Positions 17,057 through 61,135 of a DNA stretch of 64,000 nucleotides are shown here, in pieces; the first letter of the stretch is position 1; every line of letters begins with the position of its first letter. The DNA is taken from contig SMLU01000004.1 of NCBI GenBank assembly GCA_007859745.1, positions 62,001 through 126,000 on the forward strand, read 5' to 3'. The DNA comes from Phycisphaerae bacterium RAS1 (lineage in GTDB: Bacteria; Planctomycetota; Phycisphaerae; UBA1845; Fen-1342). Both the position numbers and the translations under genes were made by a program. A model generated the notes under the pieces. It saw only the letters and a program-made list of their open reading frames with translations, searched no databases and was not told where the DNA came from.

Positions 17057-17460
17057 GGGAATCTCCGCAGCGACATCGTCGCTCAGGCGGTCGGCCGCGC
17101 AGTTCTAAACGCCAGCGCTGGCGGCGTCCAGCGTGGTTGGCTCGGGTAAACCGTAGCGTCGGCCCTCAGTGGCCGACGGTGTTTTCGCGGCGTTTCTCGC
17201 ATCGTCGGGCACAGAGGGCCGACGCGACGGCCTTTTTTCCGGAATCGAGGCACTGTCTGCATATGCCCGGTGAAAGAAAAAGGAGGCTTCGCGAAATCAG
17301 GTGCGACATTTTGGCCGGTTTTTTGTATAATTTTTCGCCAATTCAGTTGACTTTACCTGACGCTCAAACTATGTTTGTCAATTGACTGCGGCGCAGCATG
17401 GTTATGTTGCGTGCGCTTGTAGTCTTTATTCTAGTGCTTTGGCAGGAGGCAGGAGAGAGT
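17057..17460. other. Divergent intergenic region with family D repeats and AT-richer promoter zone
   Basis: About 400 bases between divergent genes. 17153-17230 holds family D units (CGTCGGCCCTCAGTGGCCGA type). From about 17300 the sequence turns unusually AT-rich for this genome (TTTTTTGTATAATTTTTCGC), with TATAAT at 17327-17332. That is a credible -10 element for the PEP-CTERM gene, giving a leader of about 125 bases. No gene is supported here. Confidence 0.5.
17153..17230. repeat. Family D repeat, copy 1
   Basis: A short hairpin unit CGTCGGCCCTCAGTGGCCGA is followed after about 30 bases by the reverse-type unit GTCGGGCACAGAGGGCCGAC. The same arrangement is seen at 40035-40140 and 61041-61105, with a single unit at 47869-47896. 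Confidence 0.75.
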
Positions 17461-39600: not shown

Positions 39601-40034
39601 GCGACTGGATGTGGCCGCCGGATTCGCTCCAAGGCCCCAAGTGCATGCTCATCAACGGCCTGGCCGGCTCCGGCGGCGACGCGTTCCCGTATTACTTCCG
39701 CCAGTCCGGCCTCGGCAAGCTCATCGGCATGCGCACCTGGGGCGGACTGGTCGGCATCAGCGGAAACCCCGGTTTCATCGACGGCACCGGCAGCACCGCC
39801 CCGACCTTCGGCTTCTACGAGCGCGACGGCACCTGGGGCGTGGAAGGCCACGGCGTCGATCCGGACATCGAGGTCATCGACGACCCCGCGAAAATGCAGA
39901 ACGGCGCCGACGTCCAGCTTGACGCGGCCATCACCCACATCACCGAAGAGCTGAAGACCAAGGCCTACGTGAAGCCCAAGCGCCCCGAATACCCGGATCG
40001 CAAGGGCATGGGAATTCCGGAAAAGGACCACTAG
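36612..40034 (+). CDS. Secreted tricorn-like S41 peptidase with beta-propeller and PDZ domain
   Basis: 1140 residues from the ATG at 36612 (AAAGGA upstream), with a signal peptide ending ASAQ. Residues about 35-550 are TolB/PD40-type beta-propeller blades (FSPDGKSVAF, WSPDAQWIAYFSD, WSPDSKHVVF). A highly charged Lys/Glu linker lies at about 560-617. Then come the tricorn core, a PDZ domain (about 855-900) and the tail-specific protease fold. Candidate catalytic residues are His797 (NVGHAYY) and Ser1020 (AGSGGDAFPYYF). By family it degrades peptides; the signal peptide puts it in the periplasm, unlike the cytosolic archaeal tricorn. Confidence 0.93.
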   Translation: MNLRLSRRRYPAGIAFAASLLAAVLAPPASAQVTPHAGMLRFPDISATHVVFCYANDLWLAPRDGGTAVLLASPPGPEAFPRFSPDGKSVAFIGNYEGNRDLYVVSLDGGPATRVTYHPGFETLCGWTPDGKLLFSADYQAPFSRRDELFVIPATGGAPEKLPIPYGTLASIKSDGVWLAYTPHSIDSRTWKRYRGGMATDIWLFNLKDKTSKRMTDWEGLDSQPMWQGDAVYYLSDNGPEHRLNIWMFDSNSGQRKQVTTHKDYDVKWPANGPGKDGKGEIVYQCGADLCLLDLATGQARTLTITIPGDRPKIRPQRVDAAKFIAGGDISSTGKRLVVEARGDIWTVPAKNGAPRNLTQTSGVAERDPSWSPDAQWIAYFSDATGEYELYVRQSDGKGEPRQLTKDGNCYRYRITWSPDSKHVVFNDKTGAIFVHTIDGGATKLIDKDPTANAGGIPVNWAPDSRWITYTREVENTQNAIFIYNVPTGELKQVTSGVFNDSWPTFDRKGDYLYFSSNRNWTSPLYEDMGTTFAYANTDVLHVVPLRAKVGVPNPPKSDEELWGEKKKQEEEKDKKKDGDKKDEEKKDAAASAPATATASATASAENDDKKADEKKVDPIEIELDGFERRAVPLPLKPGAFGVLSVNDEGKLIYVRQPSRGVDAEPSLKIFDPKDDEKKENTILDGIGGYGISADGKKLVVFKGDNIAIIDAKADQKMDKPVPTDGLKALVDPREEWKQIFVEAWRVQRDFFYDPNLHRVDWPAIRKQYEKMLPDCVSREDLSYIIREMISELNVGHAYYQGGESESGPTVSVGLLGCDYEWKDGAYQIARIIEGAPWDTDARGPLSRPGVDVQVGDYLLAVNGSPVDAAKDPWAAFQGLAGKTITITVSKSPKMDDSARDVVVEALGSEENLRFRNWIEKNRAHVADKTGGKVGYVYVPDTGVNGQNNLFRQFYGQRDKQALVVDERWNRGGQIPTRFIELLNRPATNYWARRDGRDWMWPPDSLQGPKCMLINGLAGSGGDAFPYYFRQSGLGKLIGMRTWGGLVGISGNPGFIDGTGSTAPTFGFYERDGTWGVEGHGVDPDIEVIDDPAKMQNGADVQLDAAITHITEELKTKAYVKPKRPEYPDRKGMGIPEKDH

Positions 40035-40140
40035 TAGCGTCGGACCTCTGTGTCCGACGGCGACGCCAGCATCGGACCCCCGTGGCCGACGGTGTGAAAA
40101 ACCGCGGAAAACACCGTCGGACGCGGAGGTTCGGCGCTAC
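40035..40140. repeat. Family D repeat, copy 2
   Basis: TAGCGTCGGACCTCTGTGTC opens the element directly after the stop codon of the tricorn gene. A diverged middle unit follows, then a closing reverse unit ending TTCGGCGCTAC. Confidence 0.8.
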
Positions 40141-40208
40141 AGCAAAACCAGAACCACGCTAGCAGGGGAGCATCGGCGTTCCGCCGGTTCGCGCCGGCCA
40201 GCGCCGTA

Positions 40209-40284
40209 GGGCGGGGTGGCACTGTCGGAGCATCGGAAGCGAGTGATGGTCCGTGTGCCACTGCTCTGCGAGCAGTGTCTTGGG
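40209..40284 (+). repeat. Left REP arm flanking the transposase remnant
   Basis: Opens GGGCGGGGTGGCACTG and contains the palindrome CCACTGCTCTGCGAGCAGTG, ending TCTTGGG. The reverse complement of both ends recurs at 40659-40728, and a direct copy at 41899-41974. Confidence 0.85.
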
Positions 40285-40315
40285 TCGCCGGCGACGGGTC
40301 CGGAATCATGGCGGC

Positions 40316-40643
40316 ATGGAGAGCGGGATACGCAAGACGCGGAAGGCTTGGGACAAGCCGGGGCACGCGCACTTTCTCACGTACTCGTGCTACCGGCGGC
40401 TCCGCCTGCTGACGCGCGATCGGACGCGGCGATGGGTGATTGTTCCGTTTCTGGCAGCCGGGCGGCGGGTTCGACCACAACATTTTCCAGCAGAAGACCC
40501 TCGCGGCGGTGGTAGAATACATCCATGCGAACCGGGTCCGGCGCGGGTTGGTCGGCTGCCCGACCGATTGGGAGTGGTCGAGCGCTCGGTTCTGGGAAGG
40601 AAGACGGGATGTTCCACTGGCGATGAACCACCCCGACGGCTGA
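40316..40643 (+). pseudogene. REP-associated tyrosine transposase (RAYT), internally deleted remnant
   Basis: The N-terminal part reads MESGIRKTRKAWDKPGHAHF and then LTYSCYRRLRLLTRD, typical of the planctomycete RAYT branch of Y1 transposases. After RRWVI near 40440 the frame is lost, and another frame supplies the C-terminal end (FWQPGGGFDHNIF, YIHANRVRRGLVG, WEWSSARF). About half the gene is missing, including the His-hydrophobe-His metal motif and the catalytic Tyr region. The remnant sits between inverted REP arms. Family members process single-stranded REP sequences; this copy cannot be active. Confidence 0.85.
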
Positions 40644-40658
40644 AGGTGTGGCCGACGG

Positions 40659-40728
40659 CCCAAGACACTGCTCGCAGAGCAGTGGCACACGTGGAGGTTG
40701 CTTGGAGAATGAACAGTGCCACCCCGCC
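40659..40728 (-). repeat. Right REP arm, inverted
   Basis: Reverse complement of the left arm at both ends: CCCAAGACACTGCTCGCAGA with the GAGCAGTGG half at 40659-40690, and CAGTGCCACCCCGCC at 40714-40728. The middle differs. The start codon of the next gene (40716) lies inside it. Confidence 0.85.
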
Positions 40729-41612
40729 GCACCATCTTCTGGGCCGGAGTTCTAGCGTATATTGCGGCGCCGCTCCAAGCGGATGACATCTTCACAGGGT
40801 TGCACGAGGAGCGTCTGCTGACGCGGCTCGGCCGGAGCGCCAAGAGCGTTTCGCTTGGACGCGACGGGGTCGAATACTGCTTTACAAAGCGCGGTGAGCG
40901 TCGGCAGGATCCGGGCAGCATCCGCATTGGGGTCCATCCGAGCGTGGCAGCCGCGCGCGAGTCGTTTGACTTTCAGGTTCAGAGCCGGTCGGTCGGTCCG
41001 TTGACCTGGCCGACGGACGTGCCGGGAGCGGATGAGGTCTGGTGGGCGCAGACGCCGAGCGGCGAAAACGCGTGCGTGATTTTTCGCGAACGGAACATCA
41101 TCATTTCGTTCGAAGGACCGTGCCCCATGGCGATCAACTGGATGACCGAAATCCTGGACGAAATCCGCAATGACCGCGAGACGGCGCCGCTCGGCGCCTT
41201 CCCCGACACGCCCCGTATCGAAAGCGCTGGATTTCCAGCATCGCTCACGGCGTCCGTTGACCGGCGCAACTTCAACTACGTCCCCATTCAACCGGAGATT
41301 CGCGGCCTGGGCGACATTGGCCAGGTGCGGTTTCTCGTCAAGCGAGGCGGGATGCTGCCGAGCGCCGATGGGCACGTCACCATCTCACTGTCGGACTTCG
41401 AGGGCAAGCCGCTTGGCAAGCGGCGGCAATGGGCGCAGTCGCCCCGAAGCGGCGAATTTCTGGTTCGGGACGAAAGCTACTCCGGCGACGGGCGGTTCAT
41501 CATCTACGCACCGGAAACGACCGGAACGGTCACACTGACGCTGGTTGCCGTCAACGACTTGAACGTGTTCGTTACGAAGACCATTGATGTGAACGTCGTT
41601 GCTGCGCCCTGA
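40716..41612 (+). CDS. Putative exported protein of unknown function, start inside a REP arm
   Basis: 298 residues from a GTG at 40716; an in-frame stop at 40710 leaves no earlier start, and GGAG lies 8 bases upstream. The first residues MPPRR come from REP sequence and are followed by a signal-like hydrophobic stretch IFWAGVLAYIAAPLQA. The body is soluble and beta-rich, with blocks WAQTPSGENACVIFRERNIIISF and VRFLVKRGGMLPSADGHV. No family recognised. If the original N-terminus was lost when the REP unit arrived, the present start is a replacement. The stop is 1 base from the convergent aroE fragment. Confidence 0.65.
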   Translation: MPPRRTIFWAGVLAYIAAPLQADDIFTGLHEERLLTRLGRSAKSVSLGRDGVEYCFTKRGERRQDPGSIRIGVHPSVAAARESFDFQVQSRSVGPLTWPTDVPGADEVWWAQTPSGENACVIFRERNIIISFEGPCPMAINWMTEILDEIRNDRETAPLGAFPDTPRIESAGFPASLTASVDRRNFNYVPIQPEIRGLGDIGQVRFLVKRGGMLPSADGHVTISLSDFEGKPLGKRRQWAQSPRSGEFLVRDESYSGDGRFIIYAPETTGTVTLTLVAVNDLNVFVTKTIDVNVVAAP

Positions 41613-41613
41613 A

Positions 41614-41898
41614 TCATGCACCGCCGAACGACGCCGTTCGCTCGTGCCAGATTTCGTATTGTCGCCGGGCCTGGGCGAGGAAGAGCGCGTCGCCGTTGAT
41701 GATCTTCGCACCCGCCGCCGCCGCGTCGCGCAGCAGGCGCGTTTCGCGGGGCGCGTAGACCGTGTCAAACACGGTCTGAGCGGCGCGAATTGAGCCGGCC
41801 GGAAGCGGCGACTCTGCAACTCCCGGCTGCATGCCGACGCTGGTGCAGTTCACGATCAGATCGGCGCCGGCGGCGGCGCGCCCATCCCATGCAAGAAC
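41614..41898 (-). pseudogene. aroE: Shikimate dehydrogenase, C-terminal fragment
   Basis: Reads in frame on the minus strand as AAAGADLIVNCTSVGMQPG at the upstream edge, then TVFDTVYAPRETRLLRDA, and ends with INGDALFLAQARRQYEIWHE. These are the NADP-domain and C-terminal blocks of AroE (ADLIVNxTSxGM; D...Y.P.xTxLL; FLxQAxxQYE.W). The 5' two-thirds of the gene are absent: the match stops abruptly at 41899, where the duplicated REP/RAYT segment begins. By this reading it is a broken gene, and an intact copy should exist elsewhere. Confidence 0.85.
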
Positions 41899-42045
41899 GG
41901 GCGGGGTGGCACTGTCGGAGCATCGGAAGCGAGTGATGGTCCGTGTGCCACTGCTCTGCGAGCAGTGTCTTGGGTCGCCGGCGACGGGTTCGGTATCATG
42001 GCGGCATGGAGAGCGGGATACGCAAGACGCGGAAGGCTCGGGACG
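41899..42045 (+). repeat. Second copy of the REP plus RAYT 5' end
   Basis: About 147 bases nearly identical to 40209-40355, including the REP arm and the first dozen codons of the transposase (MESGIRKTRKARD). Identity ends near 42045. It is followed at 42055-42080 by an unrelated palindrome GCTGGGCTTCG...CGAAGCCCAGC. Confidence 0.9.
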
Positions 42046-42086
42046 AGTCGCGTAGGCTGGGCTTCGTACTCGAAGCCCAGCGATGC

Positions 42087-46644: not shown

Positions 46645-47871
46645 ATGCGATACATCGTACTGGCCATGGTCGTTGCGGGTTTTCTGAGTTCCGCGGCGGC
46701 GCGGGCGGACTTGAAAGAGGGGACGATCGCCCCGGACATTGAAGCGAAGGAATGGCTGAACACGGACGAGCCGGTGTCGCTGTCCGATCTGCGCGGGATG
46801 GTGGTGGTGCTGTTCTTCTGGGTCGGCTGGCATGACGCGGGCGAGGCGATTCTGCCGCTGGTCAACCAGCTCGACAACACGCGCGGCATGGGGCGCTCGG
46901 CGGGCGTCTACACGATCGGCATTACCGAGGCGGACAAGAAGCGCACCGGGCCGGTGATCGAGAAGAACAAGGTCTTTTTCCCGATCGCGCTCGAGTCGAA
47001 GTCGGTGAAGGAGTATGAGCCGAAGTCGCTGCCGTCGGTGGTGGTCATCGATCCGTCCGGCAAGATCGTGTACTCCGGCTGGCCGGGCACGGGCGGCGGA
47101 AACGAGTTCGTCAAGAAGATTCAGGACCTGATCGAGTCCAATCCGCCAACGAAAACGCACCCGCGCGAGGCGGAATTCGCCCGCGAGCACCTGGAAAACG
47201 CGAAGCGCGAGCTTCGCGAGTATGACTACCTGCGGGCGTTTCGCGACGGGCGGCTGGCGTTTGAGCGGGCGCTGCAGGGCGACCCGCTGAAGGTGTACTG
47301 CCAGAACATGCTCGACCTGATCGACGTGCTGGGGCGCGACATGCTGGCGCGCGGCGAGCGGCAGTTCGAGGAGAAGAACTTCAGCGAAGGCGTGACGACG
47401 CTGCGGCAGGTCATCGTGCAGTTCCGCGGCAGCGACACGGCCAAGCGCGCCCGCCGCCTGCTCGAATCGATGGCCAAGGACAACGCCGAGGTGAAGAAGG
47501 CGGTCGAGGCCCAGAAGCAGGAGGACCTGGCGCGGGTTGAACTCAAGGGCGCGCTGGATGACCTCCGCCAGCGGAAATTCGGCGACGCGGTCGATGCGCT
47601 GACGAAGATCGAGAAGGACTACGCCGACACCAGCGCCGCGACCGACGCCCGCGACCTGAAGACGCGGCTGCTGAAGAACGAGATCGCGGCGGCGATCGTG
47701 CGCGACCACCTGGCACGCAATGACTGCGAGTCCTGGCTGTCGCAGGGGCGGAACATGGTCCGGAGCAAGCGCGTGAGGGAAGCCAAGGAGTTCTTCCAGA
47801 AAGTGCTCGACAAGTACCCCGAGACGTCCTTCGCCGACGAGGCGCGCAAGGAACTCATCGAGCTGCCGTAG
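46645..47871 (+). CDS. Exported thioredoxin-fold protein with helical repeats, lacking the CxxC pair
   Basis: 408 residues from the ATG at 46645 (GGAG upstream; signal peptide ending ARA). The first domain, about 22-165, is an AhpC/TlpA-type thioredoxin fold: GTIAPDIEAKEWL, SLSDLRGMVVVLFFWVGWHD, LPSVVVIDPSGKIVYSGWPG. Where the active CxxC should follow the tryptophan there is WHDAGEAI, so no redox pair. The C-terminal 240 residues are helical, with TPR-like units (FSEGVTTLRQVIVQFRGSD, AKEFFQKVLDKYPETSFADE). The stop codon TAG is also the first three bases of family D copy 3. Confidence 0.8.
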   Translation: MRYIVLAMVVAGFLSSAAARADLKEGTIAPDIEAKEWLNTDEPVSLSDLRGMVVVLFFWVGWHDAGEAILPLVNQLDNTRGMGRSAGVYTIGITEADKKRTGPVIEKNKVFFPIALESKSVKEYEPKSLPSVVVIDPSGKIVYSGWPGTGGGNEFVKKIQDLIESNPPTKTHPREAEFAREHLENAKRELREYDYLRAFRDGRLAFERALQGDPLKVYCQNMLDLIDVLGRDMLARGERQFEEKNFSEGVTTLRQVIVQFRGSDTAKRARRLLESMAKDNAEVKKAVEAQKQEDLARVELKGALDDLRQRKFGDAVDALTKIEKDYADTSAATDARDLKTRLLKNEIAAAIVRDHLARNDCESWLSQGRNMVRSKRVREAKEFFQKVLDKYPETSFADEARKELIELP

Positions 47872-47896
47872 CGTCGGACCTCTGGGTCCGACGGCG
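47869..47896. repeat. Family D repeat, copy 3
   Basis: Single unit TAGCGTCGGACCTCTGGGTC followed by CGACGGCG. Its first three bases are the stop codon of the preceding gene. Confidence 0.75.
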
Positions 47897-49780: not shown

Positions 49781-49876
49781 CCGAACCCGCCGCGCCAGCG
49801 GCGGGGTGACAATCGTAAGCAAGGGGCGCCACACAGGCCGGAGCCGTCAACCCGCCGCTTGGCGCGGCGGGTTCGG
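49781..49876. repeat. Family A palindromic element, copy 3
   Basis: 96 bp. Left arm CCGAACCCGCCGCGCCAGCG lacks one base (CCAGCG for CCAAGCG); the right arm is intact. Its centre (CAATCGTAAGC...GGGCGCC) matches copies 2 (reversed) and 5. Confidence 0.9.
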
Positions 49877-61004: not shown

Positions 61005-61135
61005 GCTTCCGCTCCCTCACGGTCGCGCTCGGAACACTGGCGTCGGACCTCCGCGTGCGACGCCGAATCGTCGAATCGCCGTCGGACACAGAGGTCCGAC
61101 GCTACAGGCTCGCTACTCGCCACTCCTGAATCGGC
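61005..61135. repeat. Family B and family D units between ftsL and ftsI
   Basis: A family B unit at 61009-61032 is followed by family D copy 4 at 61041-61105 (CGTCGGACCTCCGCGTGCGA ... GTCGGACACAGAGGTCCGAC). They fill the gap between two genes of one cluster, which may weaken read-through from ftsL to ftsI. Confidence 0.75.

Follow-up and report, generated by a model that had tools for sequence, protein, structure and literature searches.

Bacterial repeats are mostly discussed for their regulatory roles, or as sequences inserted into or behind genes, and insertion sequences can give neighboring genes promoters or hybrid starts. The locus described here resembles promoter-donating insertion sequences in that the end of an element would give a flanking gene an expression signal, but the putative signal of this gene, which we call X', is translational and replaces a native start that has been lost. 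Closer to it are REPs at the beginnings of genes. Passages of PMC3733652 describe REPs inside ORFs and at their N termini (GTAG/CGTC repeats and the Rickettsia RPE), state that RPE-1 proteins are expressed in Rickettsia, and indicate that REP termini can give flanking ORFs stop codons. The same passages caution that many N-terminal REPs may be extragenic, with translation possibly starting downstream, and infer such a downstream start in three species for most of the REPs at N termini. They also describe TIRtrons, which are transposase elements with terminal repeats of another kind at their borders; these repeats are unrelated to GTAG REPs and in some cases share the motif GGGGWSAS. For GTAG-type REPs, PMC2817692 gives a GT(A/G)G head next to the palindrome as a feature.

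X' is like the N-terminal REPs described in those passages of PMC3733652 in that a palindromic repeat overlaps a coding start. It differs from them in that the repeat ends a whole transposase element and would give the ribosome site and the start codon both, and in that the sole downstream candidate, a TTG, looks poor. With the REPtrons and TIRtrons (IS200/IS605-like), the family of the element shares a Y1-type transposase gene between inverted terminal repeats with hairpins, whereas the copy at X', element A, is a derivative of 519 bp that has lost the HVH region. Among literature titles and abstract openings we found no RAYT end that supplies both a ribosome site and a start codon, which leaves the absence of such a case unproven. 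We propose, with moderate confidence, that the end of element A replaces the lost start and signal-peptide n-region of the gene and acts as the translation start of X'.

Anatomy of element A and the start of X'

The window (the whole 64,000-nucleotide stretch of DNA that was analyzed) contains the features in Table 1. The initial annotation had placed a gene at 40716–41612 with a GTG start, an in-frame TGA at 40710–40712, and a GGAG 8 nt upstream of the GTG, and these coordinates were correct on re-reading. The ORF from the GTG comprises 298 codons, with its terminal TGA ending at 41612. The product begins MPPRRTIFWAGVLAYIAAPLQADD, in which a basic n-region, a hydrophobic stretch, and a small residue ahead of DD look, by eye, like a signal peptide; the X' product is probably secreted. 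The protein had no match in Pfam, NCBIfam, or PDB sequences (the PDB search was made with a profile of 16 sequences), and a single-sequence AlphaFold2 model of it had a mean pLDDT of 44.

Table 1. Positions of the features at and around X' (coordinates are those of the window; a dot marks a feature without strand)
Feature	Position	Strand	Remark
Element A, RAYT/IS200-type mobile element, 519 bp	40210..40728	+	compared with seven 752-bp copies; transposase gene destroyed
Left terminal repeat GGCGGGGTGGCACTG	40210..40224	+	ends common to full copies
Left subterminal hairpin CACTGCTC-TGC-GAGCAGTG	40259..40277	.	read from sequence
Right subterminal hairpin CACTGCTC-GCA-GAGCAGTG	40666..40684	.	
GGAG ribosome site (predicted)	40704..40707	+	inside element A, 8 nt before GTG
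In-frame TGA closing the frame upstream	40710..40712	+	earlier start excluded
Right terminal repeat CAGTGCCACCCCGCC, 15 bp	40714..40728	+	holds GTG and codons 2–4
Gene X'	40716..41612	+	298 aa, signal-like N terminus; 40716–40728 element DNA, gene DNA from 40729
GTG start codon	40716..40718	+	faces the ATG of the paralogue
Remnant of shikimate-dehydrogenase-like gene, 94 residues, 95.7% identical	41617..41898	-	gene lies beside paralogue L037 on contig C1
Element B, left-end fragment of a sister copy of element A	41900..42046	+	4 differences/147 bp

What had been described as a REP arm does contain the GTG and is properly the right terminal repeat of a RAYT element, with matching ends on seven 752-bp copies (right end CAGTGCCACCCCGCC, left end GGCGGGGTGGCACTG, with small differences in two copies). 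Membership in the RAYT family is indicated by the inverted 15-bp terminal repeats and by the CACTGCTC/GAGCAGTG hairpins present at both ends of the element. In one full copy, the transposase (L047:3724-4278) scores 101.9 bits against NF047646 REP_Tyr_transpos (cutoff 80) and 24.8 bits against PF01797 Y1_Tnp, just over the cutoff of 23; no Pfam match was found for the ORF at 40253–40786 in element A. By eye, no GTAG adjoins the hairpins of element A, a GTGG overlaps the 3' side of the right hairpin, and the terminal repeat contains GGGGTGGC, which has one mismatch to the TIRtron motif. An 89-base right end was matched (E 0.01 or better) in 23 of the 27 genomes of the host's family, its own genome included, and those in other genomes were, among the matches listed, mostly restricted to the hairpin part. 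The right-end pattern was found in 0 stretches of a wider contig collection, which may omit the host genome or a near one.

Element A is without 233 bp of the 752-bp copies, lost in two gaps of 230 and 3 bp that include the HVH region. Over 519 aligned bases it shows 40 to 64 differences from the full copies; given these losses and differences, it is probably an old, immobile derivative. The same comparison bears on whether the arrangement could be an assembly artifact between repeat copies. Speaking for an artifact are the repeated occurrence of the element in the genome and the distance of only 1.7 kb between A and B; the junction, however, is internal to a 434-kb contig, and element A has a private deletion of 230 bp and differs from each of the seven full copies at 40 or more of the 519 aligned bases. 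Of the explanations considered here, we rank this one as the least probable.

The element part stops at 40728, so that the element contributes the GTG, codons 2–4 (PPR), and one base, the first, of codon 5, the terminus reading outward as GGAG-8 nt-GTG-CCA-CCC-CGC-C. The first five residues, MPPRR, had all been ascribed to the repeat; this applies to the start codon, to PPR, and to the first base of codon 5, and the rest of codon 5 is gene DNA. When the flanks are joined without element A, the frame reads open but contains no in-frame ATG, GTG, or TTG before a TTG at codon 29 (40800), and apart from this TTG and the GTG the first 60 codons offer no common start in frame. The ribosome site and the start codon both lie in the repeat, with no other common start before codon 29. 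The left flank follows a tricorn-protease-domain gene and shows no sign of the front part of gene X. We considered whether element A had simply jumped into a complete X gene; this is unsupported, the left flank being without an in-frame start. Because the joined flanks give no such start before codon 29, we infer that a deletion or recombination must also have taken place at the locus.

A start at the TTG would yield a protein without a signal peptide and would leave the element merely as leader. Its standing as the sole other candidate speaks for it, as do passages of PMC3733652 in which N-terminal REPs elsewhere are often thought noncoding for such a reason. Against it, the TTG pairs less well with the 16S tail (-3.3 versus -6.4 kcal/mol for the GTG) and would drop the entire signal-like stretch, which 15 relatives have ahead of the corresponding position. 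We consider a TTG start very improbable. In our preferred reading, initiation would take place within the repeat. The right end of element A directly adjoins codon 5 of a gene whose product is probably secreted, and the native ribosome site, start codon, and first codons of X have gone from the locus. The element terminus, in the right frame, would supply the ribosome site, the GTG, and, with PPRR, a basic n-region ahead of what is left of the signal peptide; mRNA would be produced and translation would initiate at the GTG at 40716.

The window holds further repeats. Members of a second family, which combine a CGTCGGAC/GTCCGACG palindrome with a head of the GTAG type, occur at 40034–40059 and 40115–40140, just upstream of element A, and also at 17153–17228, 47868–47893, and 61037–61105, as inverted pairs in three of the four places. 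The repeat pair GCGGGGTGAC lies in similar GC-rich surroundings at 49801 and 54812, on opposite strands. Beyond element B there is unrelated sequence that is Rhs-like by eye.

The start signal among right ends, and what chance would give

A script gathered 20 distinct element ends from stretches of the host genome, 11 right and 9 left, which were sorted by their match to the right end in the window, by position in full copies, and, for L054, by eye; the right end L004 was left out because it does not differ from L003 in the bases compared. We found GGAG within 20 nt before an outward GTG in all 11 right ends and in none of the 9 left ends that passed the filter. The right ends pair with the 16S tail at -5.9 or -6.4 kcal/mol and the left ends at 0.4 to -3.5 kcal/mol. 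Filter failures stand outside these counts, namely the divergent L015 and L024, which have no GGAG there, and the hairpin-less L047 1996, which has one. A 16S rRNA 3' end of the host genome, CACCTCCTTTCT, includes CACCTCC, which complements the ribosome site, and pairing at the X' GTG is -6.4 kcal/mol.

The flanks of the right ends differ, save for a passenger shared behind L003 and L004. Because repeat, GGAG, and GTG recur beside other flanks in the genome, the junction at X' is an element end and not a chance likeness, and because the GGAG-GTG arrangement is common to right ends beside differing flanks, the predicted ribosome site and start of X' are former element features, without change towards X'.

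Frame length carries little weight. Of 20,000 random window positions, 8.8% were open for 294 codons or more, so that a single long frame among the right ends (1 of 11 is open that far) is unsurprising by length. Long frames are also found behind two left ends, which open into 296 codons or more and have their own ATG at codons 15 and about 22. Similarly, of 3,000 random 20-mers from the window, 8.9% reach the strength of pairing that the X' leader has with the 16S tail. The case for the putative start is one of homology, of the signal-like stretch, and of start position rather than of ORF length or 16S pairing. As an observation apart, the left end at L006 2240 onward (G000:C2) leads outward into an open frame of 296 or more codons, which has an ATG of its own at codon 15 and by eye looks like the first part of a group II intron reverse transcriptase.

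In the predicted RNA, the GGAG is largely accessible (unpaired 0.71) and the GTG largely base-paired (unpaired 0.38; the stretch as a whole, 0.40). At 40709, an ATG in a different frame opens 25 codons and may compete or interfere with the GTG start. The fold of the 69-nt element end was stabler than that of its shuffles (z -1.99; two other stretches gave z 1.50 and 0.75), and the fold of the 121-nt leader had no added stability (z 0.17); we ascribe no regulatory role to the RNA structure. A promoter scan that may not suit the host organism gave no sigma-70-like site in 40000–41700.

Paralogue L037 and the history of the locus

The initial annotation had proposed comparison with an element-free orthologue. 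No orthologous locus was found, and a paralogue served in its place. Across the 61 genomes searched, the host is the only member of its genus, and the tricorn-like protease, the UbiA-like protein, and the C1 shikimate-type protein had no match in the relatives' stretches L056–L060 (five, 8.6–20 kb), which made the paralogue the only comparison possible. The X' protein had no relative in the wider contig collection, which may omit the host genome or a near one. Four PF07596 matches above the cutoff of that family (26.8 to 33 bits) would suit a planctomycete-like host lineage. The paralogue, L037 (contig C1, G000:C1:2346537-2347421), is element-free and convergent to a gene that we take to be shikimate-dehydrogenase-like. 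The two proteins have 298 residues each and align without gaps, with 238/298 identical; the ATG of L037 lies exactly opposite the GTG of X', and in both the start is 22 residues ahead of DD. The ribosome site of L037 (AAGGAG) and its first codons are different DNA from the element end. The suggestion that a repeat has been taken in as the start of the gene is thus supported at the level of sequence, where L037 is without the element, its ATG is opposite the GTG, and X' would have no common in-frame start codon ahead of codon 29 if the element were absent.

In 15 relatives, from the host and other genomes, a signal-like stretch lies ahead of the position matching codon 29. The likeliest ATG was picked by hand among candidates in each, so that a uniform ATG start is partly a matter of choice. 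In 14 of the 15, GGAG, GAGG, or AGGA occurs within 20 nt upstream of the picked start (one at 16 nt, which is wide); relative L046 has none of the three in that interval.

The two halves of X' differ in their relation to L037. Codons 6–141 are 67% identical without gaps (275/408 bases), with dN 0.28 and dS 1.23; the ratio of about 0.23 indicates that the 5' half was under purifying selection over its history as a whole, a span that covers all time since the split of X' and L037 and so gives no proof of use after the element arrived. In codons 142–298 there are 2 differences in 471 bases, and 41139–41899, which takes in the 3' part of X' and the 94-residue remnant of the adjacent gene, differs from contig C1 at 7 of 761 bases with a sharp conversion or recombination boundary. 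The gapped blastn match to the paralogue begins at 40794–40795, and the C1 match ends exactly where element B begins (41900). The likeliest history that we can infer is of an older X copy whose 3' part and neighbor would have been overwritten from C1. Because the 3' half was recently homogenized with the paralogue, its intactness says little, and when 3% neutral change was simulated, just 34% of the trials gained a stop within the 423 nt at the 5' end.

These results bear on the main alternative, that X' is a beheaded, silent pseudogene in which the rearrangement that placed the element end at codon 5 killed the gene, and the GGAG-GTG, a fixed part of the element terminus, came to lie in frame by chance (1 in 3). 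The upstream flank without an in-frame start, the lack of a promoter-like site in 40000–41700, the reduction of the adjacent gene copy to a 94-residue remnant, the decay of element A, the frequency of equally long open runs (8.8% of random positions), and the intact paralogue on contig C1 are all consistent with it. Against this, 298 codons are open, the start position equals that of the paralogue, and the complete signal-like stretch is retained. We regard a pseudogene as a serious contender, though clearly less probable than a start supplied by the element.

A possible second case and implications

At L047 2037-5944 (G000:C1:2614536-2618443), three 752-bp RAYT elements alternate with two 826-bp passengers at a period of 1578 bp. 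The passengers share 824 identical bases and encode lipoprotein-like, internally repeated proteins. A right-end GTG opens a 150-codon ORF (L047:2776-3225) and its copy, with a stretch, MISLSLAAC, that is lipobox-like by eye; the ORF had no match beyond its own array in the 27 genomes searched. Because pairing with the 16S tail is slightly weaker for the ATG that the ORF itself has at codon 13 than for the element GTG (-5.1 versus -6.4), use of the element start by this ORF is possible. A broader generalization, in which the RAYT right end is a portable translation start (ribosome site, GTG, and a short basic PPR leader, retained in right ends but absent from left ends) that may repeatedly capture or revive genes, seems to us unlikely on present evidence.

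N-terminal REPs are already in print in PMC3733652, and beside them X' appears to be a clear and well-resolved, if modest, case of a repeat that has become part of a gene. At X' the element origin of the ribosome site, the start, and the first codons can be traced base by base, with an unaltered paralogue and other copies of the element as controls. If the gene is expressed, X' would show the end of an element giving a beheaded gene a new beginning, and would warn gene callers that starts inside repeats can be real.
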